Positions 1 to 29,141 of a DNA stretch of 30,193 bases are shown here, in pieces (the first letter of the stretch is position 1; each line of letters opens with the position of its first letter). A program made the translations under genes and the position numbers. This DNA comes from a virus. The stretch is taken from positions 4,943 to 35,135 of the IMG/VR virus record IMGVR_UViG_3300030106_004485, one strand, 5' to 3'. A model generated the notes under the pieces. That model did no database searches. It had not been told where the DNA came from and saw nothing but the letters and a program-made list of their open reading frames with translations.

Positions 1-90
1 ATGGAAGACCCAATGGACCCATGGGTGGTAATCATCATTAACGGACACGAAATTGTCTTCAAACAAACTTACTTAAAGGTTCTACAATGA
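1..90 (+). CDS. C-terminal part of a small protein cut by the window edge
   Basis: The frame is open from the first base and encodes 29 residues ending I-V-F-K-Q-T-Y-L-K-V-L-Q, with the stop at 88-90. An ATG occupies bases 1-3, so it could be a complete mini-protein, but no upstream sequence is visible to judge this. Its TGA overlaps the ATG of the next gene by 4 nt (ATGA), which implies translational coupling. The L-K-V-L ending resembles the L-E-V-I ending of the VGD-family mini-proteins downstream, so I infer it is the tail of one of them. Confidence 0.45.
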   Translation: MEDPMDPWVVIIINGHEIVFKQTYLKVLQ

Positions 91-278
91 TTAAAAATGG
101 CACCTTACTTGTATGTCTTTGGAAGGATGAACCGCTTCTCGGAGTGCTCATCAGCAGCACAGGCAGGATCAATGGAGGCACAGGTGATTCATGGGCGGAG
201 ATCTTTTGGTCCGATGGCCATACGACTTGGGAAGAATGGGAAGCATCCATTGATGTGTGCTTCAAGGTGATAGCATGA
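87..278 (+). CDS. Small beta-rich protein, divergent member of the VGD mini-protein family
   Basis: A 63-residue protein of unknown function. It lacks the M-K-V-G-D start but keeps the family layout: a short basic N-terminus followed by alternating hydrophobic strands (LLGVLIS), then W-S-D-G and a Trp-rich stretch (TTWEEWEA), ending at K-V-I-A. The ATG overlaps the previous stop by 4 nt, and AAAGGTT lies about 9 nt upstream as a ribosome-binding site. Its stop in turn overlaps the next ATG by 4 nt. The family assignment is by pattern only. An SH3-like barrel is a reasonable fold prediction but is not proven. Confidence 0.65.
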   Translation: MIKNGTLLVCLWKDEPLLGVLISSTGRINGGTGDSWAEIFWSDGHTTWEEWEASIDVCFKVIA

Positions 279-466
279 AAGTCGGTGACTTGGTTAGGGC
301 GACCAGACCAATTCCAGCAGATGCTCTTTATATCGGCCTGATTGTTAGGTTTAGTAAGACTTTGCCCTCTGGCAAGAAGCTCTGGCGGGTTGCTTGGCTG
401 CACCAAAATGGTCGCTTGTCAACTTGTCATGAAGATGGAATGGAGGTTATAAGTGAAAGTGGGTGA
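275..466 (+). CDS. VGD-family small protein (predicted SH3/KOW-like barrel)
   Basis: A 63-residue member of the repeated family, beginning M-K-V-G-D-L-V-R. The second strand is GLIVRF, the third K-K-L-W-R-V-A-W-L, and the C-terminus is M-E-V-I-S-E-S-G. The V-G-D-x-V motif followed by G-(I/L)-(V/I) and V-x-W strands resembles SH3/KOW mini-barrels that bind nucleic acid or protein in other systems. No catalytic residues are evident. The chosen ATG has AAGGTG 5 nt upstream; an in-frame ATG 18 nt earlier lacks that site. The 3' end overlaps the next gene by 14 nt, so its last residues are encoded by the next gene's start region. Confidence 0.8.
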   Translation: MKVGDLVRATRPIPADALYIGLIVRFSKTLPSGKKLWRVAWLHQNGRLSTCHEDGMEVISESG

Positions 467-656
467 CTTGGTGTATTACAGAGGCGACCGCAGCGCGATC
501 GGCATGATCATAGGGTTATACACATCTGCCACATTTAGTGGAAGAGAGGTTGACTACTGGCATGTCTTCTGGCTTAACGATGGCTCCGATCATTGGAATC
601 CCAAGACCGCTCTAACTCATGAAGACGAATACGACATAGATAAACTTTTTTCTTGA
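453..656 (+). CDS. VGD-family small protein, GTG start
   Basis: A 67-residue protein that starts at GTG and reads M-K-V-G-D-L-V-Y-Y-R-G-D, then IGMIIGLY and W-H-V-F-W-L strands. It lies 14 nt inside the end of the preceding paralogue, with GGAGGT upstream at 442-447. The start is supported by this ribosome-binding site and by the family N-terminus. The C-terminus (EYDIDKLFS) departs from the E-V-I-N-E consensus because a promoter rather than another VGD gene follows: the TGA stop (654-656) is inside that promoter's TTGACA. Function unknown. Confidence 0.78.
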   Translation: MKVGDLVYYRGDRSAIGMIIGLYTSATFSGREVDYWHVFWLNDGSDHWNPKTALTHEDEYDIDKLFS

Positions 657-680
657 CAGATTCTCAAAGCAGGTTATATT
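653..680 (+). promoter_or_regulatory. Repeated sigma70-like promoter P1
   Basis: TTGACA at 653-658, a 16-nt spacer and TATATT at 675-680, followed by the recurring leader ATGAACCCGAGAG. A T-rich tract precedes it (AAACTTTTTTC). The -35 element contains the stop codon of the upstream gene. It drives the VGD run at 709-1623. Confidence 0.85.
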
Positions 681-708
681 ATTGATGAACCCGAGAGAAG
701 AGGAAACA

Positions 709-876
709 ATGAAAGTCGGTGACTTGGTTAAGTATCAGGAAAACTGCGATGCGACTGGCTGGGTTGGTCTGGTTGTGGAGACTCGCAAAGATCGAGCGAA
801 AGTATCTTGGCCCAAGATGGGCTGGATAGGGTGGACACACACGGGAACGCTGAAGGTGCTCAATGAAAGTCGGTGA
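709..876 (+). CDS. VGD-family small protein
   Basis: A 55-residue protein with M-K-V-G-D-L-V-K, G-W-V-G-L-V-V-E-T, A-K-V-S-W and W-I-G-W-T strands, ending L-K-V-L-N-E-S-R. First gene after promoter P1. The ATG at 709 has AGAGGAAA just upstream. An ATG at 685 is in frame but belongs to the conserved promoter leader, and equivalents at other promoters are out of frame, so 709 is preferred. The last 14 nt overlap the next paralogue. Predicted cytosolic mini-barrel of unknown role. Confidence 0.8.
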   Translation: MKVGDLVKYQENCDATGWVGLVVETRKDRAKVSWPKMGWIGWTHTGTLKVLNESR

Positions 877-1054
877 CTTGGTTAAGAATCTGCGATGGTG
901 CCCTGACGACAACCAATTCGGCATCATAGTCTCAATCTACGATTCGTCTACGGGTATCTGCAAAGTGCTGATGGCCGATGGTTCTTTGATTGATCAACTC
1001 CCAGAAAACTTAGAGGTAATAAATGAAAAGACCAGTAGCAATGAAAGTCGGTGA
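863..1054 (+). CDS. VGD-family small protein with extended double C-terminus
   Basis: A 63-residue member starting M-K-V-G-D-L-V-K-N-L, with FGIIVSIYD and C-K-V-L-M-A-D-G strands. Its C-terminus carries the tail signature twice: L-E-V-I-N-E, then K-T-S-S-N-E-S-R. The second copy arises because the next gene has two ATG-AAA start motifs 18 nt apart (1023 and 1041), and the reading frame runs through both. The upstream end shares 14 nt with the preceding gene. Function unknown. Confidence 0.8.
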   Translation: MKVGDLVKNLRWCPDDNQFGIIVSIYDSSTGICKVLMADGSLIDQLPENLEVINEKTSSNESR

Positions 1055-1250
1055 CTTGGTGCAGCTTTCTGCTGCTGGCTCAAAGAACCGCCCGAATTGG
1101 TCCATGGAAGGAAAGATGGGCATCATTCTTGCCGTCAATGTTGCCCGTAAAAACCCATATCAGGTGCAGTGGCTCCGTGAGGATTCTCAATACCGCACAA
1201 AGTGGTGGATGAAAAGACACGAACTTAAAATGTTAAGGAGTTTAAAATGA
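1023..1250 (+). CDS. VGD-family small protein, LSAAG subgroup
   Basis: A 75-residue protein reading M-K-R-P-V-A then M-K-V-G-D-L-V-Q-L-S-A-A-G-S, with MGIILAV, Y-Q-V-Q-W-L and T-K-W-W strands. Two starts are possible. The ATG at 1023 has GAGG at 1013-1016 with 6-nt spacing; the ATG at 1041 matches the family N-terminus. I prefer 1023 because of the ribosome-binding site. The L-S-A-A-G segment is shared with the proteins at 8314 and 12969, which suggests a subfamily. The stop overlaps the next ATG (ATGA). Function unknown. Confidence 0.75.
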   Translation: MKRPVAMKVGDLVQLSAAGSKNRPNWSMEGKMGIILAVNVARKNPYQVQWLREDSQYRTKWWMKRHELKMLRSLK

Positions 1251-1432
1251 AAGTCGGTGACATAGTAATGAACAGAACTCGATACTTAGGACAAGTGTTT
1301 ATGGTTATCGATACCAACAAGAAGGGAGCCTCAAGCGACGAGAAGCTCAATCAAGCAGTCCGCTGCGTCCGCGTCGGAGACGGCTACAAGACCCGCTGGA
1401 CCACCGCATCCACATGGACGGTGGTGGCATGA
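1247..1432 (+). CDS. VGD-family small protein
   Basis: A 61-residue member beginning M-K-V-G-D-I-V-M-N-R, with QVFMVID and A-V-R-C-V-R-V-G-D-G strands and a T-W-T-V-V-A end. AAGGAG lies 7 nt before the ATG, which overlaps the previous stop by 4 nt. The stop overlaps the following ATG by 4 nt, so the pair is translationally coupled. It is more divergent than its neighbours in the second half. Function unknown. Confidence 0.75.
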   Translation: MKVGDIVMNRTRYLGQVFMVIDTNKKGASSDEKLNQAVRCVRVGDGYKTRWTTASTWTVVA

Positions 1433-1623
1433 GAAATAAAGACATCAAGGTCGGCCACCTTGTTAAGTGGAGAGACTACACCAAGCCCGAACCCGTGGAA
1501 CACTTTGGCTTGGTCATAGCCACAGACCAGAACATGGGCTGGGCGGACCTGCGAGTGTTGACGGAGGGCGAGTATTCGTGGTGGCCCTCAGTTCAATGTG
1601 AGATTGTTCTTGACAAAGATTAA
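1429..1623 (+). CDS. VGD-family small protein, last gene of the P1 run
   Basis: A 64-residue protein, M-R-N-K-D-I-K-V-G-H-L-V-K-W, with His in place of Asp in the signature. It continues HFGLVIATD and D-L-R-V-L-T, then W-W-P-S and C-E-I-V-L-D-K-D. The ATG at 1429 overlaps the previous stop (ATGA); an in-frame ATG at 1414 would give a longer but less coupled start. Its 3' end is part of the next promoter: the codons for L-D-K are the TTGACA of P2, and the TAA lies in the spacer. Confidence 0.72.
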   Translation: MRNKDIKVGHLVKWRDYTKPEPVEHFGLVIATDQNMGWADLRVLTEGEYSWWPSVQCEIVLDKD

Positions 1624-1637
1624 TAACAGGTTATACT
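1610..1637 (+). promoter_or_regulatory. Repeated sigma70-like promoter P2
   Basis: TTGACA at 1610-1615, 16-nt spacer, TATACT at 1632-1637. The -35 element and part of the spacer are coding sequence for the end of the upstream gene. It drives the 172-residue protein at 1661. Confidence 0.82.
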
Positions 1638-1660
1638 ACTATACTACCCCGGAGGCATAG

Positions 1661-2179
1661 ATGAACATATTCGCAATCGAGCGCAACACGGACGGCAGCA
1701 TTGACTGGGCCAAGTCCGCACAATCACAGGACAACTATCGCGTTGTCAAAATGATTCTGGAGAGCACTCAGATGCTCTGCACAAACCTGAACCTCCTCCA
1801 TGGAGAGCAGGTCACAAGATACAAGAATGCCCATGCCAATCATCCGTCAACCAAGTGGGCCCGAGAATCATCGGACAACTTTGAGGCATTGGTCTATCAT
1901 ACTCTCGCAATGCTGGAGGAGTATACCGAGAGGTTCGGCAAGGTCCACAAGTGCGCTGGCGTATTGGATGACGCGCTCTCGCACTATGACCCCGACATGT
2001 TTCCCTCATCAGATCCAACGCCATTGCCTCTCTGTATGCCTGACGAATATAAATCCTCAGACATCGTGGAATCCTATCGCAGGTTCTATGCCAGCAAGCC
2101 CAGAATGCGCTATCCAGTGGACAAAATCCCTCCATGGTTCCGAAAATACAGACAGGAAGAATTTCAGATTATTTCTTGA
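1661..2179 (+). CDS. Phage-conserved protein of the MNIF...VVKMILE family
   Basis: A 172-residue soluble protein with GGAGG 5 nt before the ATG. The order of motifs matches a family I recall as common in tailed phages: M-N-I-F-A at the start, V-V-K-M-I-L-E-S-T-Q-M-L near residue 28-40, N-x-H-x-N-H-P-S-x-K-W-A-R-E-S, E-E-Y-T-E-R-F-G-K-V-H-K, then M-P-D-E-Y-K and P-P-W-F near the end. Members are usually annotated hypothetical and occasionally as pyrimidine-dimer glycosylase; I cannot confirm that activity. The usual D-K-H before V-V-K appears here as D-N-Y-R, a possible loss of a conserved His. The TGA stop is inside promoter P3. Confidence 0.75.
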   Translation: MNIFAIERNTDGSIDWAKSAQSQDNYRVVKMILESTQMLCTNLNLLHGEQVTRYKNAHANHPSTKWARESSDNFEALVYHTLAMLEEYTERFGKVHKCAGVLDDALSHYDPDMFPSSDPTPLPLCMPDEYKSSDIVESYRRFYASKPRMRYPVDKIPPWFRKYRQEEFQIIS

Positions 2180-2203
2180 CAGATAGTCAAAAGTGGTTAT
2201 ATT
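2176..2203 (+). promoter_or_regulatory. Repeated sigma70-like promoter P3
   Basis: TTGACA at 2176-2181, 16-nt spacer ending GGT, TATATT at 2198-2203. The upstream TGA stop (2177-2179) is embedded in the -35. It reads into a short ORF and then a structured non-coding segment. Confidence 0.82.
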
Positions 2204-2217
2204 ATCTCCATCACCCT

Positions 2218-2394
2218 ATGGTAGGACACTCCGAACTACTTAGGGTGTCAAAACTTTCCACAATACGCAAAGAAATAGGGCAAAGTGGGCATCTTATGGT
2301 GCCTGCTTGCCCTCCCGATTGCATGGCAAACGATGCGAAACAAGACGTATTGAAGCTCATTGTGGAGCGTTACAACGGTTTTGATTACTTTTGA
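2218..2394 (+). CDS. Possible 58-residue protein after P3
   Basis: The ORF begins at an ATG about 15 nt after the -10 box of P3, so the transcript would have almost no leader, and no Shine-Dalgarno sequence is visible. The protein is MVGHSELLRV at the start, has a C-P-P-D-C pair in the middle, and ends N-G-F-D-Y-F. I recognise no family. Its position directly after a promoter and its stop at the edge of a nested inverted repeat favour a real gene. The missing ribosome-binding site argues against one. Confidence 0.4.
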   Translation: MVGHSELLRVSKLSTIRKEIGQSGHLMVPACPPDCMANDAKQDVLKLIVERYNGFDYF

Positions 2395-2490
2395 GGAGTT
2401 GAATTAAGGAAAACACAAAAAAATGGACACTTGATAATCAAGGTTCTAACTTAGTTTTCCGAGACATATAAAAACAAAATTCAACTTCTC
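2393..2490 (+). repeat. Three nested, near-coaxial inverted repeats (about 98 nt)
   Basis: Outer arms are 2393-2405 (GAGGAGTTGAATT) and 2478-2490 (AATTCAACTTCTC), 13 bp with one mismatch that would be a G-U pair in RNA. Middle arms are GGAAAAC 2408-2414 and GTTTTCC 2454-2460. The inner palindrome is CTTGAT-A-ATCAAG at 2430-2442. The three centres fall within a few bases of each other. The segment is non-coding and lies directly before promoter P4. It could be a structured RNA, an attenuator, or a MITE-like element with terminal inverted repeats; I see no clear target duplication. Confidence 0.6.
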
Positions 2491-2492
2491 AC

Positions 2493-2520
2493 TTGACAAC
2501 CAATTACAACGGGTTACAAT
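2493..2520 (+). promoter_or_regulatory. Repeated sigma70-like promoter P4
   Basis: TTGACA at 2493-2498, 16-nt spacer with ACGGGT at its end, TACAAT at 2515-2520. It drives the zinc-knuckle gene at 2551. Confidence 0.8.
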
Positions 2521-2550
2521 ACTCATGAAACCCACCACTGGAGAGCCACA

Positions 2551-3408
2551 ATGGAAATATACAAAAACAAGGGTAAATCAAAGAACGCTTGTTCGTATTG
2601 CCGACAGACTGGACACAATGTTTCATCTTGTGAATTAGCAGAGTATGATTGGCATGAGTGGTCCATGGGAAGAGTACCTCTTAGCTCCAAAACTCTACAG
2701 ACGAATATTGGCTGGTGGTATAGAGAGAACTATACACACTGGTATCAAAATTCCCGAGACGCATTCTTGAAGATAGAGGCAGCGAGAAACAAGTCAAAGC
2801 AGAAACAGCCCAGACGTAAAACAAAGTGCGGTTTTTGCGGAGAGGAAGGGCACACTCGACGAACATGCACCGTCATGGCTCAAGTTCTCAAAGATGCATA
2901 CCAAGCCAATGAGAACTGGAGAAGAGCCTTCTACCAGCGTATGGTGGTGGAGGAGGGCCTGTCCGAGGGCGCAGCCGTAAGGGTTGACAGGGCAAGACAT
3001 AGCTACTGGAGCCGTAACACTCATAAGCCAGAGTATGCCATGGGTCTAATCTCCAGTGTCAATTGGGATGACCTAAGTTTTCTCAGTTCACATGGTAACA
3101 TCTCGCCTGACTATCGGACAGATTTAATGGTTACGGCAGTGGTGGATGGAAAGACCGTAGATGTCATATTTAAGAAATCGTTTGAAAGGCCAGACGGAAA
3201 GGTAGTCTGCGTCGAGACGAAAGCATGGCTTTATGGCCCTTCTTATGATTCCATCGTCGGCAAGTCCGAGAAGCCTCTCTCGGAAGAGTGGGCGTCCGAG
3301 GGCATGAAGGATGAGATACTATTCTTGCTCAAGAAGCGCAGCCTTGCAAAGCTCAAAGAAGCTGGAATCATGGACGCCATCGATACATGGAAGGGTCAGT
3401 CATGTTAA
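2551..3408 (+). CDS. Tandem CCHC zinc-knuckle protein, copy 1
   Basis: A 285-residue protein with GGAGAG about 5 nt before the ATG. Two CX2CX4HX4C zinc knuckles are visible: C14, C17, H22, C27 and C93, C96, H101, C106, separated by a Trp-rich helical linker. Zinc knuckles of this type bind single-stranded nucleic acid in retroviral nucleocapsids and eukaryotic RNA factors, and are uncommon in phages. The second half (from about residue 120) has no motif I recognise and contains alternating strands (VDVIFKKSF, KVVCVETKAWLYG). The gene at 3636 is a paralogue with the same knuckle spacing. Nucleic-acid binding is inferred from the knuckles only. Confidence 0.8.
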   Translation: MEIYKNKGKSKNACSYCRQTGHNVSSCELAEYDWHEWSMGRVPLSSKTLQTNIGWWYRENYTHWYQNSRDAFLKIEAARNKSKQKQPRRKTKCGFCGEEGHTRRTCTVMAQVLKDAYQANENWRRAFYQRMVVEEGLSEGAAVRVDRARHSYWSRNTHKPEYAMGLISSVNWDDLSFLSSHGNISPDYRTDLMVTAVVDGKTVDVIFKKSFERPDGKVVCVETKAWLYGPSYDSIVGKSEKPLSEEWASEGMKDEILFLLKKRSLAKLKEAGIMDAIDTWKGQSC

Positions 3409-3581
3409 AAGTAGGAGACTTAGTTAGGCTCAAGAACCACCCATCCAACAAGGAATTCTGGGTTGGCGTTGTCAAGAGGGTCATATCTGCCGAGGGCTAC
3501 GCTGATAAAGCCGAGGTCCTCTGGCCATCCCAAGATAAAGTTCATACCTTCCTTATGCGAGATTTAGAGAAAATTTCTTGA
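3402..3581 (+). CDS. VGD-family small protein
   Basis: A 59-residue protein, M-L-K-V-G-D-L-V-R-L-K, with FWVGVVKRV and A-E-V-L-W-P strands, ending L-E-K-I-S. The ATG overlaps the 3' end of the zinc-knuckle gene by 7 nt; AAGGGTC lies upstream. The TGA stop (3579-3581) is within the TTGACA of P5. The gene thus sits between two zinc-knuckle genes, possibly in one functional unit with the first. Function unknown. Confidence 0.78.
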   Translation: MLKVGDLVRLKNHPSNKEFWVGVVKRVISAEGYADKAEVLWPSQDKVHTFLMRDLEKIS

Positions 3582-3605
3582 CAGAATCTGATAACGGGTT
3601 ATGTT
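3578..3605 (+). promoter_or_regulatory. Repeated sigma70-like promoter P5
   Basis: TTGACA at 3578-3583, 16-nt spacer, TATGTT at 3600-3605, followed by the leader ATGAACCCC. Contains the stop codon of the upstream VGD gene. Confidence 0.82.
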
Positions 3606-3635
3606 ATTAATGAACCCCAAAACAATGGAATAAAG

Positions 3636-4442
3636 ATGAGTAATTATCGCTGCGGTTACTGCTGGGAATACGGACACAATAAGACTACCTGCCCCAAGAT
3701 GAAGGAAGATTATGAAGCAGCTTCCAAGGCAGTAGAGGAAGGCACTTCAACAAGACATCTAACGTACAGGATGCGGAGAGCACTCAACGAGTATCCGAGA
3801 GTACAACGGAACAAGAAGAAGGTCAGGCGTTGTAGCTATTGCGACGGCGAAGGCCACAGGATCACCACCTGCCCTACCCGTAAGGAACATATCCAGCAGT
3901 ACAAGGACTTGAGTACCGTCTGGCAGACAAGGGTAACCGAGGTTCTCCAAAAGCATGGAGTGGGTCCCGGCGCGATTATTATGCAACAAGGCTGGAGAAC
4001 GGTCAACAACGCATACGAGAGGACTCTGGTCCCTCATATCATCACAGAGCTTAACCCTTTTAACCTTGACTTCGCTGATTTCCTCAAGTGGTCAAGACAT
4101 TCCGAAAACGCACATCGCCTCATAGCCCGCCCGCTGAGTGATCCGACTCGCAACGAGACCCTGCGTGTTCCCTATGTGGTTCTGTATGAACTGAGTGAGA
4201 TGTTGGCGTCTGAATTGGGAGACAGGAGTATAATAAACTGCTTTCGGCACCCTGATACATTCGACGGCGACGGCTCCGTTGTCTCTCGCAGCACTGCTAA
4301 GGTTGAGGCTTCGCCTCTTCTGCCAGAGCAAGAGAAGCTTATATTCAAGGGAGACAAGACATCCGTTGGCCATCGTGTTAGTGGAGTCTATGGCATGGTC
4401 AAGAAAAACAATGATGGAGTCTTCTTTGGGGTCAAGTTGTGA
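3636..4442 (+). CDS. Tandem CCHC zinc-knuckle protein, copy 2
   Basis: A 268-residue paralogue of the 2551 gene. Knuckles are C6, C9, H14, C19 and C66, C69, H74, C79, again CX2CX4HX4C with a basic linker between them (R-N-K-K-K-V-R-R). The second knuckle is followed by helices, then a C-terminal domain ending DGVFFGVKL that I do not recognise. The ribosome-binding site is weak (GGAATAAAG). The stop overlaps the GTG of the next gene by 4 nt. Conserved knuckles joined to divergent C-terminal halves suggest a common nucleic-acid-binding head with different effector parts; that is inference. Confidence 0.8.
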   Translation: MSNYRCGYCWEYGHNKTTCPKMKEDYEAASKAVEEGTSTRHLTYRMRRALNEYPRVQRNKKKVRRCSYCDGEGHRITTCPTRKEHIQQYKDLSTVWQTRVTEVLQKHGVGPGAIIMQQGWRTVNNAYERTLVPHIITELNPFNLDFADFLKWSRHSENAHRLIARPLSDPTRNETLRVPYVVLYELSEMLASELGDRSIINCFRHPDTFDGDGSVVSRSTAKVEASPLLPEQEKLIFKGDKTSVGHRVSGVYGMVKKNNDGVFFGVKL

Positions 4443-4642
4443 TCCCTACGGGCGAATTGAAGTCTGGAACCCTGTTGCGACTTAGATATATCATAGGCGA
4501 CTGCCTATGTATGGTTACAAGGTCCGAATGGATACCAGCCCGTGGAGACTGGAAGCACTATTGCTACTTCTTAGATGATGGCGTGCTGGGGTGGGTATAC
4601 GGGTCTGATGTGGAGGAAGTATGTTCAATCAAGGGGACTTAG
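4439..4642 (+). CDS. Divergent VGD-family small protein, GTG start
   Basis: A 67-residue protein starting at GTG (4-nt overlap with the preceding stop). It reads M-I-P-T-G-E-L-K-S-G-T-L-L-R-L, where K-S-G-T-L-L replaces K-V-G-D-L-V. Strands CLCMVTRS and C-Y-F-L-D-D-G and a V-E-E-V end fit the family layout. The 3' end overlaps the next gene by 22 nt. Function unknown. Confidence 0.68.
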   Translation: MIPTGELKSGTLLRLRYIIGDCLCMVTRSEWIPARGDWKHYCYFLDDGVLGWVYGSDVEEVCSIKGT

Positions 4643-4815
4643 TTGAGAACATGGCTCTGGACAATGCTCTTGGGGTAGTGATAGGCCATGTGATGAAGAC
4701 ACCAGACGGCGAAGACTACTACCTCTGCTTCTATGCGGAGTATGGATTGTGTATGGTATGGGCTGGCAGTCGGCTGAATCTTCTATCTTCTTCGATGAAT
4801 TACTTGACAGATTGA
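4621..4815 (+). CDS. VGD-family small protein (QGDLV variant)
   Basis: A 64-residue protein, M-F-N-Q-G-D-L-V-E-N, with LGVVIGHVM and Y-L-C-F-Y-A-E strands. GGAGGAAG precedes the ATG closely. It lies 22 nt inside the upstream gene, the longest overlap in the array. The codons for its last residues (L-T) are the TTGACA of P6 and the stop lies in the spacer. Function unknown. Confidence 0.72.
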   Translation: MFNQGDLVENMALDNALGVVIGHVMKTPDGEDYYLCFYAEYGLCMVWAGSRLNLLSSSMNYLTD

Positions 4816-4831
4816 AACAACGTGTTATGTT
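4804..4831 (+). promoter_or_regulatory. Repeated sigma70-like promoter P6
   Basis: TTGACA at 4804-4809, 16-nt spacer, TATGTT at 4826-4831, then ATGAACGGAGG. The -35 is inside the coding end of the upstream gene. Confidence 0.8.
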
Positions 4832-4852
4832 ACTAATGAACGGAGGTTAACA

Positions 4853-4945
4853 ATGCAACATATATTCTTTCTTGCTGAACTGGCTGTACTCATGGGATCC
4901 TTTGGAACCTTGTTTTACTTTGTTGAGAAGAGCCTATCCAAGTGA
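4853..4945 (+). CDS. 30-residue single-span membrane peptide
   Basis: A short ORF with a strong GGAGG 7 nt before its ATG and directly downstream of P6. The product MQHIFFLAELAVL... is hydrophobic through residues 4-25 and ends in a short charged tail (E-K-S-L-S-K), a predicted single transmembrane segment. The stop overlaps the GTG of the next gene (GTGA). No family recognised; phage membrane micro-proteins often act on host envelope or transport, but nothing here shows the target. Confidence 0.65.
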   Translation: MQHIFFLAELAVLMGSFGTLFYFVEKSLSK

Positions 4946-5130
4946 AAAATCAGGATCCCATAGCCGTCGGCGACTTGGTTCTCGTACACACTAAGCTTCA
5001 TGGTGAGGCAAAGGTTGGCCTTGTCACTTCCATTGGGGCCTTCATAGATGTGGTGTTCTTAGACGGCGCATATACATGCGTCCACAGAGCATTCATCCAG
5101 AAGATAAAGAAAAACGAAGAATCTTCTTGA
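4942..5130 (+). CDS. VGD-family small protein, GTG start
   Basis: A 62-residue protein with an 8-residue N-terminal extension (M-K-N-Q-D-P-I-A) before V-G-D-L-V-L-V. Strands VGLVTSI and F-I-D-V-V-F-L-D-G follow. The GTG overlaps the stop of the membrane peptide by 4 nt. The stop (5128-5130) is inside the TTGACA of P7, giving a S-S end. Function unknown. Confidence 0.75.
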   Translation: MKNQDPIAVGDLVLVHTKLHGEAKVGLVTSIGAFIDVVFLDGAYTCVHRAFIQKIKKNEESS

Positions 5131-5154
5131 CAGAATCCGACAGCAGGTTATATT
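5127..5154 (+). promoter_or_regulatory. Repeated sigma70-like promoter P7
   Basis: TTGACA at 5127-5132, 16-nt spacer, TATATT at 5149-5154, then the ATGAACCCGAGA leader. Contains the upstream stop codon. Confidence 0.85.
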
Positions 5155-5185
5155 GTTTATGAACCCGAGACAAGAGGTTGTCAAA

Positions 5186-5875
5186 ATGGATAGAGAGCGT
5201 CTGGCTAACATTCTGAAGAACGCCAAAGACTGCGGCAGAATGGGCGACATTCAATTCGTTCAGAGCGTGATCCAATACTACGATAATCGTGGATACATAA
5301 CTGACGGACAGGCACACTGGGCCAAGAAGATAGAGGCGCGGAGTTGCCCTGAAGAGGCTAAGAAGGCTCGCGAATGGTATGATCGCATCGCCACAGATGA
5401 AAGACACAGGGCCGAGGCCCGCATCGTATCGACCTATTACAAGAACCTTCGCCGATATTGGTCGAGACTTGCGGACGATACTCTTAACTATCTGGATGGC
5501 CACACCGACGAGCCTCCGAACTATGTCCAATTCATGAAGATGTTTAATAACAAGTATGCGGAGAATGTGCTTTATACCGCTACAATGGGCAGACTATGGA
5601 ATGTTGGAGATATGGTCATGCTTCGCGCTAATATAAGCCCTGACCATGCCAAGACGATGAGCGGAGGGGCTCTATATTCCGCAATCCAGTGCGATCTGAA
5701 GGACAAGCCTCTGATGGTTGTTGAGGTTGATTGCGAACCAATCCAGCATGCGCTGACCTACCAGTCTGGTAGGGGTGGGTGCCTGCGCTATAAGCTACTT
5801 CCTCTCGGCTCCACCGAAACTATAATCGTGAACGAGCGAGACATAAAGAAGGTTCCAAAGAAAAAACTTAAATAA
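5186..5875 (+). CDS. Helical protein with a C-terminal VGD-like domain
   Basis: A 229-residue protein of unknown function. Residues 1 to about 115 are charged and helical, with many Arg/Tyr (AREWYDRIATDERHRAEAR). From about residue 136 the sequence W-N-V-G-D-M-V-M-L-R-A appears, followed by strands (PLMVVEVDC, RYKLLPLG, ETIIVNERDI) and a Lys-rich tail, so I read it as a helical domain fused to a larger VGD/SH3-like domain. AGAGG lies 8 nt before the ATG at 5186. An upstream in-frame ATG belongs to the promoter leader. It is the only gene of its transcription unit. Confidence 0.7.
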   Translation: MDRERLANILKNAKDCGRMGDIQFVQSVIQYYDNRGYITDGQAHWAKKIEARSCPEEAKKAREWYDRIATDERHRAEARIVSTYYKNLRRYWSRLADDTLNYLDGHTDEPPNYVQFMKMFNNKYAENVLYTATMGRLWNVGDMVMLRANISPDHAKTMSGGALYSAIQCDLKDKPLMVVEVDCEPIQHALTYQSGRGGCLRYKLLPLGSTETIIVNERDIKKVPKKKLK

Positions 5876-5879
5876 AATC

Positions 5880-5907
5880 TTGACAGAACCCAGCAACGGG
5901 TTATATT
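5880..5907 (+). promoter_or_regulatory. Repeated sigma70-like promoter P8
   Basis: TTGACA at 5880-5885, 16-nt spacer containing CAGCAACGGGT, TATATT at 5902-5907. The spacer differs from that of P9 and P10 by at most one base. Confidence 0.85.
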
Positions 5908-5940
5908 CTCTACATCAACAATCAATAAATCGGAGGCACA

Positions 5941-6273
5941 ATGATTAAGACATGTAGACATTGCGAGGATGAATTCAATTGCAAGTCGCCGCAGAAAAGA
6001 TTAGTCGGCGGATATATCGATGAATGTCCTGACTGCGTTGAGGAAAACGGTGGAGACCCTGCCCCTGTTATCCGTGGCTTTGTCACGGGAGACGGAAAGA
6101 TGGCCGCAATGCAGATTTTGAAGTTTAACGATTCAGCGTCAGCAGACGAATATGGTCGCAACTGGAATAATAACAGCGGATGGAACAATCGCAGGACTGG
6201 CTCCATGAACGATGTATATTTTGAAAAGGTTGGCGAGAACATAGGCAACAGCAACCATAAAGGAAAAAATTAA
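5941..6273 (+). CDS. Zinc-ribbon phage protein (CRHC...CPDC)
   Basis: A 110-residue protein with GGAGG 4 nt before the ATG. The N-terminus has two Cys pairs, C5-x2-C8 and C31-x2-C34, separated by a basic segment (KRLVGGYIDE), a probable zinc ribbon. I recall similar N-termini (K-T-C-x-x-C-x-x-E-F-N ... G-G-x-x-x-x-C-P-D-C) in many tailed phages with no assigned function. The rest is polar, rich in Asn and Trp (NWNNNSGWNN), possibly flexible. Nucleic-acid or protein binding is likely for a zinc ribbon, but is not shown here. Confidence 0.75.
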   Translation: MIKTCRHCEDEFNCKSPQKRLVGGYIDECPDCVEENGGDPAPVIRGFVTGDGKMAAMQILKFNDSASADEYGRNWNNNSGWNNRRTGSMNDVYFEKVGENIGNSNHKGKN

Positions 6274-6282
6274 AATACTTTC

Positions 6283-6310
6283 TTGACAGAACCCAGCAAC
6301 GGGTTATGTT
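6283..6310 (+). promoter_or_regulatory. Repeated sigma70-like promoter P9
   Basis: TTGACA at 6283-6288, 16-nt spacer identical to that of P8, TATGTT at 6305-6310. Preceded by TTAAAATACTTTC, as is P10. Confidence 0.85.
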
Positions 6311-6339
6311 ATTTACACAAGACGAAAACAGGAGTTAAT

Positions 6340-6675
6340 ATGTCTTTTATAAAACTAACATCTTTTGAATCATGGACTTCCGAACTATGCAGCAGCGGAG
6401 AAGGACATCCGCCTAACTTGCTGGTCAACACTGATCACGTTCTACGTGTCATCACCGCACCCCGAGGCACTATCGTAGGTCGCCTGCTGTATACGCCTTC
6501 GATTCTAATCTTTGCGGATAAGGCAGTAAAAGTAGCTGAAACGCCTGAATACTTCTATGAGGCCTGGGCCGTTGGCCAAGGCTCCGTCCATCGCGATGGA
6601 TCCTCTTATGTTCAGGGTGTCCGCGTCAATGAATGGGGCAACCCAATTAGCGACGAGGCCACCGCCCAGCAATAA
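6340..6675 (+). CDS. Hypothetical 111-residue protein
   Basis: The ATG at 6340 has GGAG 5 nt upstream. The protein is M-S-F-I-K-L-T-S-F-E-S-W then beta-rich (HVLRVITAP, GRLLYTPSILIFADKAVKV), followed by a helix (PEYFYEAWAVG) and a polar C-terminus ending E-A-T-A-Q-Q. No family recognised. It is the sole gene of its promoter unit. A compact soluble protein is the only safe prediction. Confidence 0.7.
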   Translation: MSFIKLTSFESWTSELCSSGEGHPPNLLVNTDHVLRVITAPRGTIVGRLLYTPSILIFADKAVKVAETPEYFYEAWAVGQGSVHRDGSSYVQGVRVNEWGNPISDEATAQQ

Positions 6676-6691
6676 AAATTAAAATACTTTC

Positions 6692-6719
6692 TTGACAGAA
6701 TCCAGCAACGGGTTATATT
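6692..6719 (+). promoter_or_regulatory. Repeated sigma70-like promoter P10
   Basis: TTGACA at 6692-6697, 16-nt spacer, TATATT at 6714-6719. Upstream 20 bases nearly identical to those of P9, consistent with recent duplication of the promoter module. Confidence 0.85.
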
Positions 6720-6750
6720 CTTTACATCACCCAGACAAACGAGGTAAGCA

Positions 6751-7095
6751 ATGGGTTATAGATCACAGGTAGTTCTCGCCGTTGGCCCAGAGAAAATTGG
6801 TCATCTTCTTACGATGCTCAGTGCCAACCAACAAGCCTTCCAGATGTTTCAAGAGGGCTTGGTAGCGGGCACGAAAGACTACATGCAGAAGGGTGATCTC
6901 CTTCTGGTTTGGCGCGATATCAAGTGGTACACAAGCTATGACTGCGTTGGAGTTTTCGCTGAATTTATAGATTCCTGCTTGCACGAAGACAACGAACAAT
7001 TCCGCTTTGTCCGAGTCGGCGAGGAAGTCGATGACATTAAAGTCCTTGGCGAATACTCATATGATGTCTACCCCACAACCGATATAGTCTACTAA
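6751..7095 (+). CDS. MGYRSxV-family phage protein
   Basis: A 114-residue protein opening M-G-Y-R-S-Q-V-V-L-A-V, a signature I recall from a small-protein family widespread in tailed phages and some prophages, function unknown. The body fits an alpha/beta fold: a helix (EKIGHLLTMLSA), strands (DLLLVWRDIKWY), a second helix (VGVFAEFIDSCL) and an acidic E-E-V-D-D-I-K-V loop near the C-terminus. GAGGTAA lies just before the ATG. The next gene follows 13 nt later with its own ribosome-binding site, so the two form a short operon under P10. Confidence 0.8.
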   Translation: MGYRSQVVLAVGPEKIGHLLTMLSANQQAFQMFQEGLVAGTKDYMQKGDLLLVWRDIKWYTSYDCVGVFAEFIDSCLHEDNEQFRFVRVGEEVDDIKVLGEYSYDVYPTTDIVY

Positions 7096-7108
7096 CCAGA
7101 GGTCAAAA

Positions 7109-7483
7109 ATGGCATATCTCAAGCCCAAACAAACTATCTTCATCTCCAACGAAGGACGCCCTATCTACTCGCTGGTAGAAAAGGTAGCATTCCGACGCTA
7201 CCGAGGAAAATATACTGACAAGAAGACTGGCGAGAAGAAGAGACGCTGGAAGTCAATGCCCTATGCTGTCTGCAAGGTCAAGATGTCCTCTGACCCTGAT
7301 GTCCCTGTCGGCAGCGAATTCCTGATCCCGGGATACAAACTGCGGAATGTCACAATGAAGGGAGAGAAGATCCTCGCTTTCCGAGATCAATACATCGCAG
7401 AGTGGGCCGAGCAATACGGCAATAACTGGGTTAAAAGGATGATTTTGGAGGAGGAGGCAAAAGAAAAACCAGATTCTCCTTGA
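7109..7483 (+). CDS. Hypothetical basic 124-residue protein
   Basis: AGAGGT precedes the ATG at 7109. The protein is basic in its first half (RRYRGKYTDKKTGEKKRR) and ends in an acidic-basic helix (EEEAKEKPDSP). Segments FLIPGYKLRNVTM and WAEQYGNNWVKRM are distinctive but match no family I can name. Second gene of the P10 operon. The TGA stop (7481-7483) is inside the -35 of P11. Confidence 0.7.
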   Translation: MAYLKPKQTIFISNEGRPIYSLVEKVAFRRYRGKYTDKKTGEKKRRWKSMPYAVCKVKMSSDPDVPVGSEFLIPGYKLRNVTMKGEKILAFRDQYIAEWAEQYGNNWVKRMILEEEAKEKPDSP

Positions 7484-7507
7484 CAATTCGCAGCGATGGG
7501 TTATGCT
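7480..7507 (+). promoter_or_regulatory. Repeated sigma70-like promoter P11
   Basis: TTGACA at 7480-7485, 16-nt spacer (a variant, CAGCGATGGGT), TATGCT at 7502-7507. Contains the upstream stop codon. Confidence 0.8.
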
Positions 7508-7538
7508 ACTATCATACCCCCCTACACAGAGGTAACAC

Positions 7539-7853
7539 ATGGATATATGGGTCATCGCAAGGAATCACCACGGAGAGCAGATGATGAGCACGCATCTAAC
7601 AGAAAAGGGTGCGTTGCTCCTCGCTCTCTACGAGGTTATGGACTACCTGTCAATATACACCAAGGAGAACTATCAAAACTTCTTGGAGCACCATAACCTT
7701 GACGGGGAGCCCGTTCCGCTGGCGATATGGCGTCGGGAAGACCTTGAAGAGCAACCCTGTGACCTCCTTTGGGATGTCTGGGGCTTCTGGGCTGACTTCT
7801 GGTGGAGTCAACGTGTAGACTGGCATATACAAAGGACACAGGTACAACCATGA
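7539..7853 (+). CDS. Hypothetical acidic, Trp-rich protein
   Basis: A 104-residue protein with AGAGGTAA before the ATG. It begins MDIWVIARNHHGEQMM and carries a helical middle (LALYEVMDYLSIYTKENY) and a strikingly Trp-rich end (DVWGFWADFWWSQRVDWH). No family recognised. The stop overlaps the next ATG by 4 nt, so it is coupled to the VGD gene that follows. Long shadow frames exist on both strands here, but only this one has a ribosome-binding site and promoter context. Confidence 0.7.
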   Translation: MDIWVIARNHHGEQMMSTHLTEKGALLLALYEVMDYLSIYTKENYQNFLEHHNLDGEPVPLAIWRREDLEEQPCDLLWDVWGFWADFWWSQRVDWHIQRTQVQP

Positions 7854-8068
7854 AGAAGGGAGACCTCGTTAGAGTTGTGTCAGGTTTCGGTGACTACTAT
7901 CACCAGACCGAACATGGATATGTTAGGGTTCACGGGATTGGTATCGTTTTGAGCGACTACAAAACTATGGATCACGAGGTTAAGCTTCTCATAAACGGAG
8001 AAGTATACTACGTCCATGAATGCTACTTAGAGGTTATATCAGAGAAAAAAGATGAAGATTCTCCTTGA
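7850..8068 (+). CDS. VGD-family small protein (KKGDLV variant)
   Basis: A 72-residue protein, M-K-K-G-D-L-V-R-V-V-S-G, with GIGIVLSDY, V-K-L-L-I-N-G and C-Y-L-E-V-I-S-E strands. After the usual L-E-V-I-S-E end it continues K-K-D-E-D-S-P to a TGA (8066-8068) in the -35 of P12. The residual E-V-I-S-E suggests it once stood before another VGD gene. Coupled to the upstream gene by a 4-nt overlap. Function unknown. Confidence 0.77.
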   Translation: MKKGDLVRVVSGFGDYYHQTEHGYVRVHGIGIVLSDYKTMDHEVKLLINGEVYYVHECYLEVISEKKDEDSP

Positions 8069-8092
8069 CACATTCCGAGAGCAGGTTATATT
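8065..8092 (+). promoter_or_regulatory. Repeated sigma70-like promoter P12
   Basis: TTGACA at 8065-8070, 16-nt spacer, TATATT at 8087-8092. Contains the upstream stop codon. Leader is ACATACCCCGAACAGAG, a variant shared with P13 and P14. Confidence 0.82.
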
Positions 8093-8119
8093 ACTGACAT
8101 ACCCCGAACAGAGTGTAAT

Positions 8120-8559: not shown

Positions 8560-8563
8560 TTCC

Positions 8564-8591
8564 TTGACAGATTAGAACAACAGGTTATACT
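8564..8591 (+). promoter_or_regulatory. Repeated sigma70-like promoter P13
   Basis: TTGACA at 8564-8569, 16-nt spacer, TATACT at 8586-8591, then the leader ACTACCATACCCCGAACACA, the same as at P14. Confidence 0.83.
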
Positions 8592-8620
8592 ACTACCATA
8601 CCCCGAACACAGGTAAACAC

Positions 8621-8997: not shown

Positions 8998-9008
8998 CAG
9001 GTTATACT
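8981..9008 (+). promoter_or_regulatory. Repeated sigma70-like promoter P14
   Basis: TTGACA at 8981-8986, 16-nt spacer, TATACT at 9003-9008. The -35 is fully inside the upstream coding sequence. From the -10 on, the leader matches P13 for about 30 nt. Confidence 0.82.
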
Positions 9009-26345: not shown

Positions 26346-27557
26346 ATGAATAAGACTATTACCTTTGATTTTGACAACACGATAGCTATGTCATACATGG
26401 ATGATAAATCCGAAAAGGTAAATTATATCTTTCAAGAATACAATGAGGATATTCTCGACCTAATTCGGTCTCATATCCAAAATCAAGATAGTGTATTTAT
26501 TGTCACATCGCGCATCGAAACGAAAGAGTCGATGTTTCCCGAGGACACCATACCAAAACACTTGGAAAGGTTGAATCTAGCTGGCTATTTCCTTCCAAAT
26601 AGACTATATTACACCAATTCTGAACCTAAGCTGAACACTCTTAGGCAGTTGGGCTCGGAAATGCACTATGATGACGATGTTGAGGAGATAACTCTTCTTC
26701 AAAAAGCTGGGATGAACGTCAAATCATCCCTTGATTTCTATTCTGATGTCCAAACTGTTGCCAAGTCAATAATTTTTGACTCCGAAGATAGGGTATTGCT
26801 TCTTCAAAGAACCGATGGGGGGCGCAAATGGGACCTTCCGGGTGGACACGTCAAGAGTATTGAGGCCGAGAGGGGTCTTTTGGGTGTGGAAAATGGTCTG
26901 GTTAGAGAGGTTGCGGAAGAAACGGGCCTTATTTTGCCGTTTCAGAAGCTTCAAGCACGCTTGACACACCATTGGCGTGGTAATGATATCGCTATTTATT
27001 CATTTTTGAGCAAACTACCGCATCCACAGCCCGAAATTGATTTAAATTTGCAGGATTTCCAAGAGAACGATAATTACATATGGGCAAATGCTGAAGAGAT
27101 TGAACAGTATTATAACAAATGTACCAGTCTTGTCAAGAGGATTATCGATATTATGAAGAAAAACAATGATAAGGTGACTGATTCACAAGCTTTACGTTAC
27201 ACAAAGGACGGAAAGCATCGTAAAATGAAGATGAGACTCATCGGACAGGGCGAAAACAAGAGTGATGGCGGTGGGCCATATACCGAAGACCCCGATATGG
27301 AACGCTCAAAGTCTGCTCCTCCTCTTGGTGAGGGCAAAAATAAAAAAAAACTAAAGATTAGAGTTAAGATTCGACCCAAATCTGATGATCTTGACGAGAA
27401 AAAGAAAAAAAAGAAGAAGAAAAAGAAGAAATCTCGTAGAAAGAGCAGAAGATCGCCCTATAGGGGCGTAGGATACGGTGGATATTACCCATTTCACAGC
27501 GTTTATGACAGCGGTGGAGACGCTGGCGGTGGTGATGGCGGGGGTGGTGGTGAATAA
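26346..27557 (+). CDS. HAD phosphatase - Nudix hydrolase fusion with basic and Gly-rich tail
   Basis: A 403-residue protein. Residues 1-135 are a HAD-like domain: D8-F-D10-N-T12 (motif I), I-V-T54-S55-R (motif II) and Y-D-D-D109-111 (motif IV). Residues 136-270 are a Nudix hydrolase: D-L-P-G-G-H-V at 163-169 and R187-E-V-A-E-E-T-G form the Nudix box, with about six extra residues between its G-x5-E and REV parts. The tail has S-K-S-A-P-P, a phage-type motif, then the beta tag KLKIRVKIR, eleven consecutive Lys with Arg/Ser, and a Tyr/Gly-rich end. Nudix enzymes cleave nucleoside diphosphate-X bonds; HAD domains remove phosphates. Together they may process one nucleotide substrate in two steps; this is inference. 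It has its own promoter. Confidence 0.85.
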   Translation: MNKTITFDFDNTIAMSYMDDKSEKVNYIFQEYNEDILDLIRSHIQNQDSVFIVTSRIETKESMFPEDTIPKHLERLNLAGYFLPNRLYYTNSEPKLNTLRQLGSEMHYDDDVEEITLLQKAGMNVKSSLDFYSDVQTVAKSIIFDSEDRVLLLQRTDGGRKWDLPGGHVKSIEAERGLLGVENGLVREVAEETGLILPFQKLQARLTHHWRGNDIAIYSFLSKLPHPQPEIDLNLQDFQENDNYIWANAEEIEQYYNKCTSLVKRIIDIMKKNNDKVTDSQALRYTKDGKHRKMKMRLIGQGENKSDGGGPYTEDPDMERSKSAPPLGEGKNKKKLKIRVKIRPKSDDLDEKKKKKKKKKKKSRRKSRRSPYRGVGYGGYYPFHSVYDSGGDAGGGDGGGGGE

Positions 27558-28002: not shown

Positions 28003-28005
28003 GCA

Positions 28006-28344
28006 ATGTTTATCACCGAAAGTCGCCTAAAACAGATAATTTTGGAAGAAATGGGTGCCCTAGAGGCCGAAAAACTCCAAAATATGGAGCCAGAAGGGTC
28101 GATGGTGAGGGATCAATTGCTCCAAATGGCTGAATATGCGACGTTTTTAGCCAATAATATGCCCGAAGACGCCCATTTGGCGGGTTGGGTACAGTCTAAA
28201 ATTACGCTTGCAAACGACTATATCAGCAAAGTAAAGCATTATTTAGAGGAAGAAATGGGGCCTCAAATGGGTGGTGGGTGCGGAGAACCCGAAGAAATGC
28301 CTGTTCCAGCCGTTGATGCAGTCGCTATTCAAGAAGAAACGTGA
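28006..28344 (+). CDS. Phage helical protein with ITESRLKQII N-terminus
   Basis: A 112-residue protein with GAGGAATTA before the ATG. It begins M-F-I-T-E-S-R-L-K-Q-I-I-L-E-E-M, the amphipathic helix type also at 20110. The core (DQLLQMAEYATFLANNMPED, then L-A-G-W-V-Q-S-K-I-T-L-A-N-D-Y-I-S-K-V-K-H-Y-L-E-E-E) matches a pattern I recall from marine phage proteins (W-V-Q-S-K-I-x-x-A-x-D-Y-I-x-x-V-x-H-Y-L). The tail is Gly/Pro-rich and acidic. Function unknown. Confidence 0.74.
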   Translation: MFITESRLKQIILEEMGALEAEKLQNMEPEGSMVRDQLLQMAEYATFLANNMPEDAHLAGWVQSKITLANDYISKVKHYLEEEMGPQMGGGCGEPEEMPVPAVDAVAIQEET

Positions 28345-28354
28345 CCTGATCTAT

Positions 28355-28371
28355 TGGATTAGGCTAATCCA
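28355..28371 (+). promoter_or_regulatory. 8-bp palindrome before the VOC gene
   Basis: TGGATTAG-G-CTAATCCA, perfect arms with one central base, directly before the AGAGGT ribosome-binding site of the ATG at 28381. No T-tract follows. It could be an operator, or a hairpin controlling translation. Confidence 0.5.
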
Positions 28372-28380
28372 GAGGTAAAA

Positions 28381-28719
28381 ATGACAACAGTTGACCATAT
28401 TGCGCTTCGTGTGCATGACTTAAACAAGGCTCGCAAATGGTATGAGGAAAATCTGAACGCTAAGGTGATCTTTAATAGCGAGTTCTATGTCAGAATGTCC
28501 CTTAATAACACAACTTTGGCACTTATTGACGAACAGAGGTATCTCCATAACCATATTGGGATACTTGTTGAAAACATTGACAATTTGCCAAAAAATGGAC
28601 AAAGAATTGAACATAGAGATGGAACAGTCGGAGTGTATGTCCGAGACCCTTTTGGCAATGTCATAGAATACATATGGTATTCCGAAGAGGCCAAAAGAAA
28701 AGTAAATGGCGAAACCTAG
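28381..28719 (+). CDS. VOC-superfamily (glyoxalase/fosfomycin-resistance type) protein
   Basis: A 112-residue single-domain VOC protein. The two beta-alpha-beta-beta-beta modules are visible: V-D-H6-I-A-L-R-V-H-D-L-N-K-A-R-K-W-Y-E-E-N-L and, later, H58-I-G-I-L-V-E-N-I, then V-R-D-P-F-G-N-V-I-E96-Y-I. H6, H58 and E96 are positioned as metal ligands, as in glyoxalase I, FosA/FosX and dioxygenases. The substrate cannot be told from sequence. Length is normal for the family. AGAGGT lies 6 nt before the ATG. The next gene overlaps the end by 14 nt. Confidence 0.82.
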   Translation: MTTVDHIALRVHDLNKARKWYEENLNAKVIFNSEFYVRMSLNNTTLALIDEQRYLHNHIGILVENIDNLPKNGQRIEHRDGTVGVYVRDPFGNVIEYIWYSEEAKRKVNGET

Positions 28720-28936
28720 ATTAATCGATTATATGAAGAAAAGGTTTATCGCCTATAATGTTTGTATAATCGATCCCCAAGCGGCTTGCGGTATGCGAAG
28801 GCAATCTATTGGTCCGTATACCAAAGAACACGCGTATAAAATAATGTTCGATCACCTAAGTAATGGTATATGCGCTTGGGTTGAAGAAGATTATGTCAAA
28901 GTCTCCATTGGGCGGAAGCCAACTAGAAAAATTTAA
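28706..28936 (+). CDS. Hypothetical basic 76-residue protein
   Basis: The ATG lies 14 nt inside the VOC gene, with AGAAAAG as a weak ribosome-binding site. Sequence M-A-K-P-R-L-I-D-Y-M-K-K-R-F-I-A-Y-N-V-C-I-I-D, then a G-P-Y-T-K-E-H-A-Y-K-I segment and strands (CAWVEEDYVKVSIGRK). No family recognised. The end overlaps the following gene by 44 nt in another frame. Confidence 0.62.
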   Translation: MAKPRLIDYMKKRFIAYNVCIIDPQAACGMRRQSIGPYTKEHAYKIMFDHLSNGICAWVEEDYVKVSIGRKPTRKI

Positions 28937-29141
28937 TATCGGAGACCTTGTATATTGGACAGAGTTTTGTTTTGATAGCAAATGCAGTCCGCCAGTTGAA
29001 GTGTTTCACGGAATAATACTTGGATTCATAACAGAATACAAGAGCGGCAGAGGTGTTTTGCTTGCTGATGTCTTACCTGTAAACAACAGTGTTTCGATTC
29101 AGATTGTAATTACGAAATTAAGAAGAGTAAAAACTAATTAA
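28893..29141 (+). CDS. VGD-family protein in the right-hand region
   Basis: An 82-residue protein with M-S-K-S-P-L-G-G-S-Q-L-E-K then F-N-I-G-D-L-V-Y-W, followed by VFHGIILGFITEY and G-V-L-L-A-D-V-L strands. The I-G-D-L-V-Y-W plus G-I-I-L-G layout fits the VGD family of the left region, and it is the only such copy to the right of 17 kb. GAAGAAGA precedes the ATG at 28893. It overlaps the upstream gene by 44 nt. Function unknown. Confidence 0.68.
   Translation: MSKSPLGGSQLEKFNIGDLVYWTEFCFDSKCSPPVEVFHGIILGFITEYKSGRGVLLADVLPVNNSVSIQIVITKLRRVKTN

Follow-up and report, generated by a model that had tools for sequence, protein, structure and literature searches.

The stretch of DNA analysed here, hereafter the window, covers 30,193 nucleotides (nt), namely bases 4943-35135 of the 35,135-nt virus record IMGVR_UViG_3300030106_004485, and carries arrays of small genes whose products mostly begin with MKVGDLV or a close variant. 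The initial annotation had named 23 such standalone genes, and all of them encode small proteins as it stated, of 50-102 amino acids (aa). We call them mini-genes and designate each by its start position; 24 starts were translated for the 23 genes, gene 1023 being read also from 1041, six codons downstream, the start that places it on the seam described below. All are on the plus strand. The series opens with the divergent mini-gene 87 (87-278, start MIKNGTLL), followed by 275 (275-466), whose stop lies inside the start of 453 with a 14-nt overlap, then by 453 (453-656, GTG start), 709 (709-876), 863 (863-1054) and 1041 (1041-1250), the latter overlapping 863 by 14 nt. It continues with 1247 (1247-1432), which forms a subfamily with 9365 (35% identity, expectation value (E) 1e-6), 1429 (1429-1623), 3402 (3402-3581), the divergent 4439 (4439-4642), 4621 (4621-4815), 4942 (4942-5130), 7850 (7850-8068), 8120 (8120-8317), 8314 (8314-8559), which has long inserts, 8621 (8621-8821), 8818 (8818-8997), the shortest one, 9038 (9038-9190, 50 aa), 9190 (9190-9378), 9365 (9365-9556) and 9543 (9543-9728), whose start is off the seam. 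Mini-gene 12969 (12969-13277, 102 aa) also has inserts, and 28893 (28893-29141) is an outlying divergent copy.

The 23 copies form one family. Each was recovered by a profile of the other 22 (leave-one-out, E ≤ 0.0033 with Z=1), with values from 3e-14 for 709 and 1e-6 for 1247 to 0.0006 for 87, 0.001 for 4439 and 0.003 for 9543. When the N-terminal motif was kept and the remaining residues were shuffled 300 times per copy, no shuffle matched the real score in 14 of the 23 copies, 4621 among them; in the other nine, 1-14 of 300 did (one for 4942, two each for 8314 and 87, four each for 12969 and 28893, eight each for 7850, 9543 and 4439, and 14 for 1247). Homology thus extends past the first seven residues, being weakest by this test in 1247, 7850, 9543 and 4439. 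Mean entropy was 0.6 bits in the first seven columns versus 2.6 in the strands and 3.6 elsewhere, and the inner columns G25, V40, W42 and G45 keep a single residue in 53-89% of sequences. A fused copy proposed in the C-terminal half of the protein starting at 5186 did not hold up: its profile E was 0.31, with a best stretch of 14 profile positions, and no relative of this protein was found in a scan of the viral contigs.

A six-frame scan of the 35,135-nt record (677 segments) with the 23-copy profile, for which the 23 copies are themselves the training set, gave 25 hits at E < 0.01, all on the plus strand. The two hits beyond the 23 are copies of the same record located before the start of the window (L009:4626-4841, E 1e-10; L009:3816-4022, E 0.0015). 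Segments L009:2237, 2945 and 4480 were weak (E 0.4-0.8), but other loci contain ten relatives of 4480 at E < 1e-3. A second profile of 98 members was built around 9190; the corresponding alignment A2 holds 9190, 88 of 90 picked relatives (two omitted) and nine other window copies. This profile found 16 copies in the window record, and an iterated profile with a poor alignment scored copy 87 at E 3.3 only; support for the most divergent copies thus comes from the 23-copy profile. Iteration on MAFFT alignments of 600-800 members degraded the profile, and the 23-copy and 98-member profiles were used. Known families gave little. The 98 members had no match in PADLOC, one stray match in NCBIfam, and eight member matches to six PHROG families, none with a described function (best 1.5e-5, to phrog_1690, matched by two members). 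Pfam KOW (PF00467) was listed for none of ten window copies. Pfam DUF2158 (PF09926) was matched by one of the 98 members at E 0.0021; copy 1041 reached 13.5 bits, below the curated cut-off of 22.3, and the other nine window copies were not listed. In a tblastn search of 50,697 phage records, 709 had no match (E ≤ 1), and 9190, 9038 and L066:91-243 found nothing better than E 0.03.

Related phages were collected with the MoxR-type AAA ATPase that adjoins the array (10054-11109, plus strand; AAA_5, E 7e-10) as bait, keeping the best 80 of its 241 viral-contig relatives, at most 79% identical. The 23-copy profile detected 843 segments at E ≤ 0.01 in these 80 loci (1.26 Mb), 841 of them on the plus strand, and 77 of the loci held at least one; comparison of the family with its relatives kept 841 of 843 called genes, two falling outside 40-140 aa. 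Every one of the 14 records of 180-205 kb contained copies, 11-32 per record by the 98-member profile and 5-24 by the 23-copy profile, and a Gp23-family major capsid protein scored above cut-off in all 14 of these long related records, a count that leaves out the window's own 35-kb record. The description of the family as an amplification in one phage was thus too narrow; by sequence, the arrays appear to be a trait of a whole group of uncultivated T4-type phages. Individual copies have counterparts there: 1041 is 43% identical to a relative in L013 (segment 2410-2637), 1429 45% to a copy in L012, 7850 34% to one in L013, 8818 46% to one in L084 and 9543 43% to one in L016; 87 has a relative in L015 (E 7e-6) and 28893 a single one, in L034 (E 7e-5). 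No relatives at E < 1e-3 were found for 4439, nor by BLAST for 4621.

Among cultured phages, 390 records match the MoxR-type ATPase, with identities of at most 32.9% among the 30 matches listed. The 98-member profile had no match in T4, Va1, S-PM2, P-SSM2, HTVC008M, KVP40, G or RM378, and phiPMW, to which three structural hits also pointed, gave one sequence match with the 23-copy profile (E 6.6e-4). MoxR relatives occur in four loci of three metagenome-assembled bins, which fix no single host. One bin 'chromosome' of candidate division WOR-3 (L101, CP070664.1) has the phage ATPase locus together with 11 family matches at three places, so that phage sequence was apparently binned or integrated there.

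We found also that neighbouring mini-genes are joined by a coding overlap of fixed length, a feature absent from the initial annotation. Junctions were counted in the window record and 73 related loci; seven near-identical loci (L014, L021, L024, L027, L030, L047 and L059) did not enter the counts of junctions, seams, promoters and empty sites. An overlap of exactly 14 nt was present at 198 of 394 mini-mini junctions, 86 of 368 mini-other, 76 of 371 other-mini and 48 of 1844 other-other junctions. Other genes were called on the plus strand by a greedy longest-open-reading-frame rule, so that some of them may be undetected copies. In 189 of the 198 mini-mini overlaps GGTGA occupies positions +10 to +14, and chains of 14-nt overlaps reach seven mini-genes. 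At these junctions lies a seam of about 33 nt with the consensus TTGGAGGTnATCAGTGAAAGTCGGTGATTTGGT, which encodes the upstream C-terminus and stop (..LEVISESR*) together with the Shine-Dalgarno sequence, start and MKVGDLV N-terminus of the next gene, the Shine-Dalgarno GGAGGT sitting in the codons of the upstream LEV. Seam information amounts to 45.9 bits over 48 nt versus 17.6 for starts after a gap. The seam Glu codon is GAG in 203 of 216 cases before a 14-nt overlap, 65 of 94 before a gap and 796 of 1757 inside genes. Codon 4 is GGT, as the upstream TGA requires, at every one of the 122 KVGDLV starts that lie in such an overlap; of the 111 that do not, 75 have GGT. The seam pattern alone retrieves at least 119 viral stretches.

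In the window, seam-type 14-nt overlaps join 275 to 453, 709 to 863, 863 to 1041 and 9190 to 9365, the upstream C-terminus SESG* or NESR* being read in another frame from the next gene's ATGAAAGTCGGTGA or its GTG form. The seam between 275 and 453 (440-472, plus strand), with a GAGGT Shine-Dalgarno, the GTG start and the upstream TGA, matches the pattern exactly at 443-466, as does the one between 9190 and 9365 (9352-9384) at 9355-9378; that between 709 and 863 (850-882) has two mismatches at 853-876. The 863-1041 junction has the overlap without the Shine-Dalgarno half of the seam, and the 9365-9543 junction has a 14-nt overlap whose sequence differs from the seam.

Comparison of strains showed whole units gained or lost at the seams. 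Loci L037 and L038, 95.6% identical over 14.0 aligned kb, differ by two exact seam-to-seam units within 0.5 kb: L038 lacks a unit of 148 nt (L037:4983-5130), and L037 lacks one of 145 nt (L038:5287-5431). For both units, the single seam of the strain lacking it matches the left seam on its upstream side and the right seam on its downstream side, which places the crossover within the shared stretch. Three more such junctions were read directly (L031/L045, L050/L052 and L039/L050); the L039/L050 junction leads into a gene other than a mini-gene, and the seam is shared there in its first half only. Over the five junctions, flank identities were 0.85-0.99, whereas the sequence preceding the wrong seam gave 0.25-0.33. 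A strict test for empty sites found 5 among the 357 mini units and none among the 283 others (strict controls for other genes, shifted by 50, 70 and 90 nt: 1 of 283, 1 of 282 and 0 of 282), and a loose one 9 of 357 and 1 of 283. Conserved blocks near arrays ended at -15 to +35 of a seam start in 39 of 58 cases, with 22% expected at random; these 58 ends come from 20 strain pairs sharing loci and are not independent. In the gene order of 15 strain pairs, many unmatched mini-genes lie between conserved ones. T4-type phages recombine readily between short repeats, and we infer that recombination is the route of unit exchange.

The initial annotation had described a kept core with strongly divergent loops. 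This stands for comparisons between copies: in 1822 paralogue pairs from the same loci, 26% of strand and 9% of loop residues were identical. It fails as hypervariability within a lineage, since 87 orthologue pairs, picked at ≥45% identity, share 77% of their residues in strands and 63% in loops. The ratio of nonsynonymous to synonymous substitution rates (dN/dS) of mini-gene orthologues was 0.06-0.60, computable in 11 of 14 strain pairs; it exceeded that of large genes in nine of ten pairs having both and that of other small genes in eight of 11. Orthologous mini-genes are therefore under purifying selection. Paralogues differ yet orthologues are kept, which argues that every copy is kept as a protein in its own right, as distinct functions would predict. 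In the pair L051/L053 the synonymous rate (dS) was 0.014 for large genes and 0.222 for mini-genes, which suggests that mini-gene units there were imported from other strains. Between the window record and L012 or L013, four and nine reciprocal-best mini-genes average 39% and 41% identity, large genes 54%.

Promoter-like boxes accompany the array. The region 647-15831 of the window contains 22 copies of a 44-nt sigma70-like element of the TTGACA type, TTGACAGAATC..GGTTATATT, 61-82% identical to the reference copy. The promoter pattern had 19 matches, with none on the minus strand and none for the reversed control. The box before 709, TTGACA..TATATT (653-680, plus strand; record 5595-5622), has one mismatch and belongs to repeat family D1. 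Boxes precede six of seven gapped mini-genes in the window and 46 of 139 in relatives, compared with 0 of 35 and 27 of 695 after shuffling.

The structure of two divergent copies was modelled with AlphaFold2. The model of 9190 (98 sequences, alignment A2) had a pLDDT of 85.6, a pTM of 0.72 and five strands; that of 8314, from the 18-sequence alignment A3 (8314, 15 of 16 picked relatives, one duplicate being omitted, and two window copies), had a pLDDT of 81.9, a pTM of 0.70 and also five strands. Structural matches of the two models were for the most part small SH3-like barrels. Those of 9190 (VIA) included DSIF KOW6-KOW7 (Z 8.7, rmsd 2.1, 56 residues aligned), Ssl0352/NdhS (Z 8.4, rmsd 1.8, 52 aligned), Spt5 (8.3), the PHF19 Tudor domain (8.3) and NusG (8.0), and those of 8314 included PsaE (Z 7.2, rmsd 2.5, 60 aligned) and DSIF (Z 6.3, rmsd 1.8, 54 aligned). 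The mini-gene product is thus predicted to be a small five-stranded SH3/KOW-like barrel; for these two of the 23 copies the models agree with the fold that had been guessed from the strand pattern. A Foldseek search of the PDB returned nothing at E ≤ 0.001 (best 3.5e-3, PetP). The family profile had no significant match among solved structures in the PDB (best E 0.09, NusG), and its 27 weak hits, none significant, include NusG, uL24, eL21, eL14 and five PrgH chains. In a viral fold library, a long series of A0A516M/A0A516L proteins matches the fold, as does the RIIB protein of Pectobacterium phage Arno162; the former, which we take to come from uncultured marine double-stranded DNA viruses, seem to be one deposited batch holding many copies.

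These neighbours bear on what the barrels bind. All copies might be KOW-like binders of nucleic acid or of the transcription complex (DNA, RNA polymerase or the ribosome), present in number for dosage or for different sites on one machine. Spt5/NusG KOW domains are among the best structural neighbours, the weak profile hits to NusG, uL24, eL21 and eL14 point the same way, and T4 MotB, an early protein, is described as binding DNA and as having an N-terminal domain of predicted KOW type (PMC7827196). However, net charge spans -9 to +9 among the copies of the window record, with a mean of -0.5 over 864 copies, which argues against all copies being plain nucleic-acid binders. The loops are moreover unrelated in paralogues and kept in orthologues, and Pfam KOW was matched by one of 98 members only (E 0.002). 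We regard this explanation as unlikely, while granting it real weight.

Amplification might also be passive, unequal recombination at the seams multiplying units of which most have little function. Repeated seams and unit differences would yield arrays without selection for number, and the copy number does span 11-32. The orthologue dN/dS values speak for purifying selection instead; within a record, mini-gene matches of ≥50 residues do not exceed 36% identity among the matches listed, so the paralogues are divergent and not fresh duplicates, and arrays are present in all 14 long records. This makes passive growth improbable. That the conserved termini reflect the seam only, as a translational-coupling device between unrelated proteins, fits the conservation being strongest at the start and is very improbable given the shuffle test, the inner columns G25, V40, W42 and G45, the 111 KVGDLV starts outside 14-nt overlaps and the same kind of barrel predicted for two divergent copies.

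We lean, by a small measure, towards reading the locus as tandem arrays of SH3/KOW-like barrels in a T4-type accessory region that provide the phage with exchangeable binders, expressed early and used in host takeover or counter-defence. The host RNA polymerase would read the TTGACA-type promoters, so that the array would be on at once after infection. Ribosomes would pass from gene to gene at the overlaps, a coupling suggested by the overlap and the Shine-Dalgarno placement. Each small barrel may present its own loops to a different host protein or complex. Recombination between two seams would add, delete or swap a whole unit and, the joints being alike, would do so without a break of frame or loss of the ribosome site. 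The outcome would be a quickly re-assorted set of small barrels that have their core in common and differ in their loops.

Several observations weigh against this reading. The full seam, at ≤3 mismatches, is present at three window junctions only, the fourth having the overlap alone. In the loose empty-site test, mini controls with both ends shifted by 50, 70 and 90 nt scored 28, 10 and 0 of 357, and in the strict test 9 of 357, 0 of 356 and 0 of 356; we think that the 50-nt-shifted controls score because the seam is still inside them. Of the five sites that passed the strict test, u58 gave no clean alignment. The empty-site tests thus separate seams from controls poorly, and exchange depends on the five directly read junctions. 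Block ends at seams could reflect whole-gene divergence around a fixed seam. Small non-mini genes evolve nearly as fast as mini-genes, and boxes are equally common before other gapped genes (387 of 1005). The best Z of 8314 is 7.2, and the tool warns that a Z under 8 may mean a mere common arrangement.

A bolder reading, which we propose tentatively and rate a little short of even, is a self-sealing cassette array. The fixed-length coding overlap would serve as a universal joint, through which single binder genes could be swapped, lost or imported by short-repeat recombination, giving an evolving early host-directed library with neither integrase nor mutator. Hundreds of small phage genes without known function, from a widespread uncultivated group, here resolve into one family with a predicted fold, a common joint and visible gain and loss. 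The seam is a simple DNA probe for further arrays, and it appears that a coding overlap can serve at the same time as a safe site of exchange. Should the copies prove to bind different host or defence proteins, the arrays would amount to a natural collection of single-domain binders that selection has already sorted.

Other features surround the arrays. Next to them, at 10054-12424, the MoxR-type AAA ATPase is followed by a DUF2201 metallopeptidase/VWA-like protein, whose PHROG is labelled HNH endonuclease. Two proteins at 2551-3408 and 3636-4442 have repeated CxxC-x4-H-x4-C knuckle-like motifs; the first matches zf-C2H2_10, and the second has no Pfam match at E 0.01. Several larger proteins between 18479 and 30024 have lysine-rich stretches of the LKLSIKVKF..KKKKK or LKIRVKI..KKKKK type. 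The product of 26346-27557 has a Nudix hydrolase domain (PHROG match, residues 130-268), and its N-terminal part ahead of this domain may be phosphatase-like. The part at 15-18 kb has a GC content of about 0.49-0.51, and the part past 22 kb one of about 0.40.

Among known systems, T4 MotB comes from a T4-type phage and has, like the mini-gene products, a predicted KOW/SH3-like domain; it is described as an early protein that alters H-NS binding to DNA in vitro (PMC7827196). It differs in having two predicted domains, an N-terminal KOW and a C-terminal OB (PMC7827196), whereas the mini-gene copies have 50-102 aa and both models are single barrels. Membership of the mini-genes in the MotB family was rejected on this length, on the single barrel of both models and on the T4 genome being without a match to the family profiles. 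NdhS/Ssl0352, PsaE and PetP, among the top structural matches, are single small barrels of similar length to the copies; they are, however, cellular photosynthetic subunits and have no significant sequence match with the mini-gene family. These three proteins dock on large complexes, in keeping with the titles of their structure entries.

Duplication followed by divergence is reported to be habitual in T4-like phages, with seven putative gene duplications in pf16 and none found by the authors in phiPMW (PMC5587285). The duplications described there concern pairs of varied genes, whereas the mini-gene arrays hold one fold, in as many as 32 copies, and have the seam in common. The Far-T4 phages, a divergent T4-type group known mostly without cultivation, resemble the carriers of the arrays and likewise have Gp23 capsid proteins (PMC4360716); the main text of the paper describing them does not mention SH3, MoxR or paralog, and RM378 has no family copy. 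Among the listed matches in titles and abstracts of PubMed Central papers under open licence, often a minor share of all matches, none described arrays of this kind, which is not proof of absence. As far as we could see, a common fold combined with a fixed coding overlap as the exchange point is a new variant. No integrase turned up with the mini-gene arrays, no search aimed at integrases having been made. Integrons are likewise arrays of exchangeable single-gene cassettes with a shared joint; the mini-gene arrays differ from them in that the joint is coding sequence of both neighbours.

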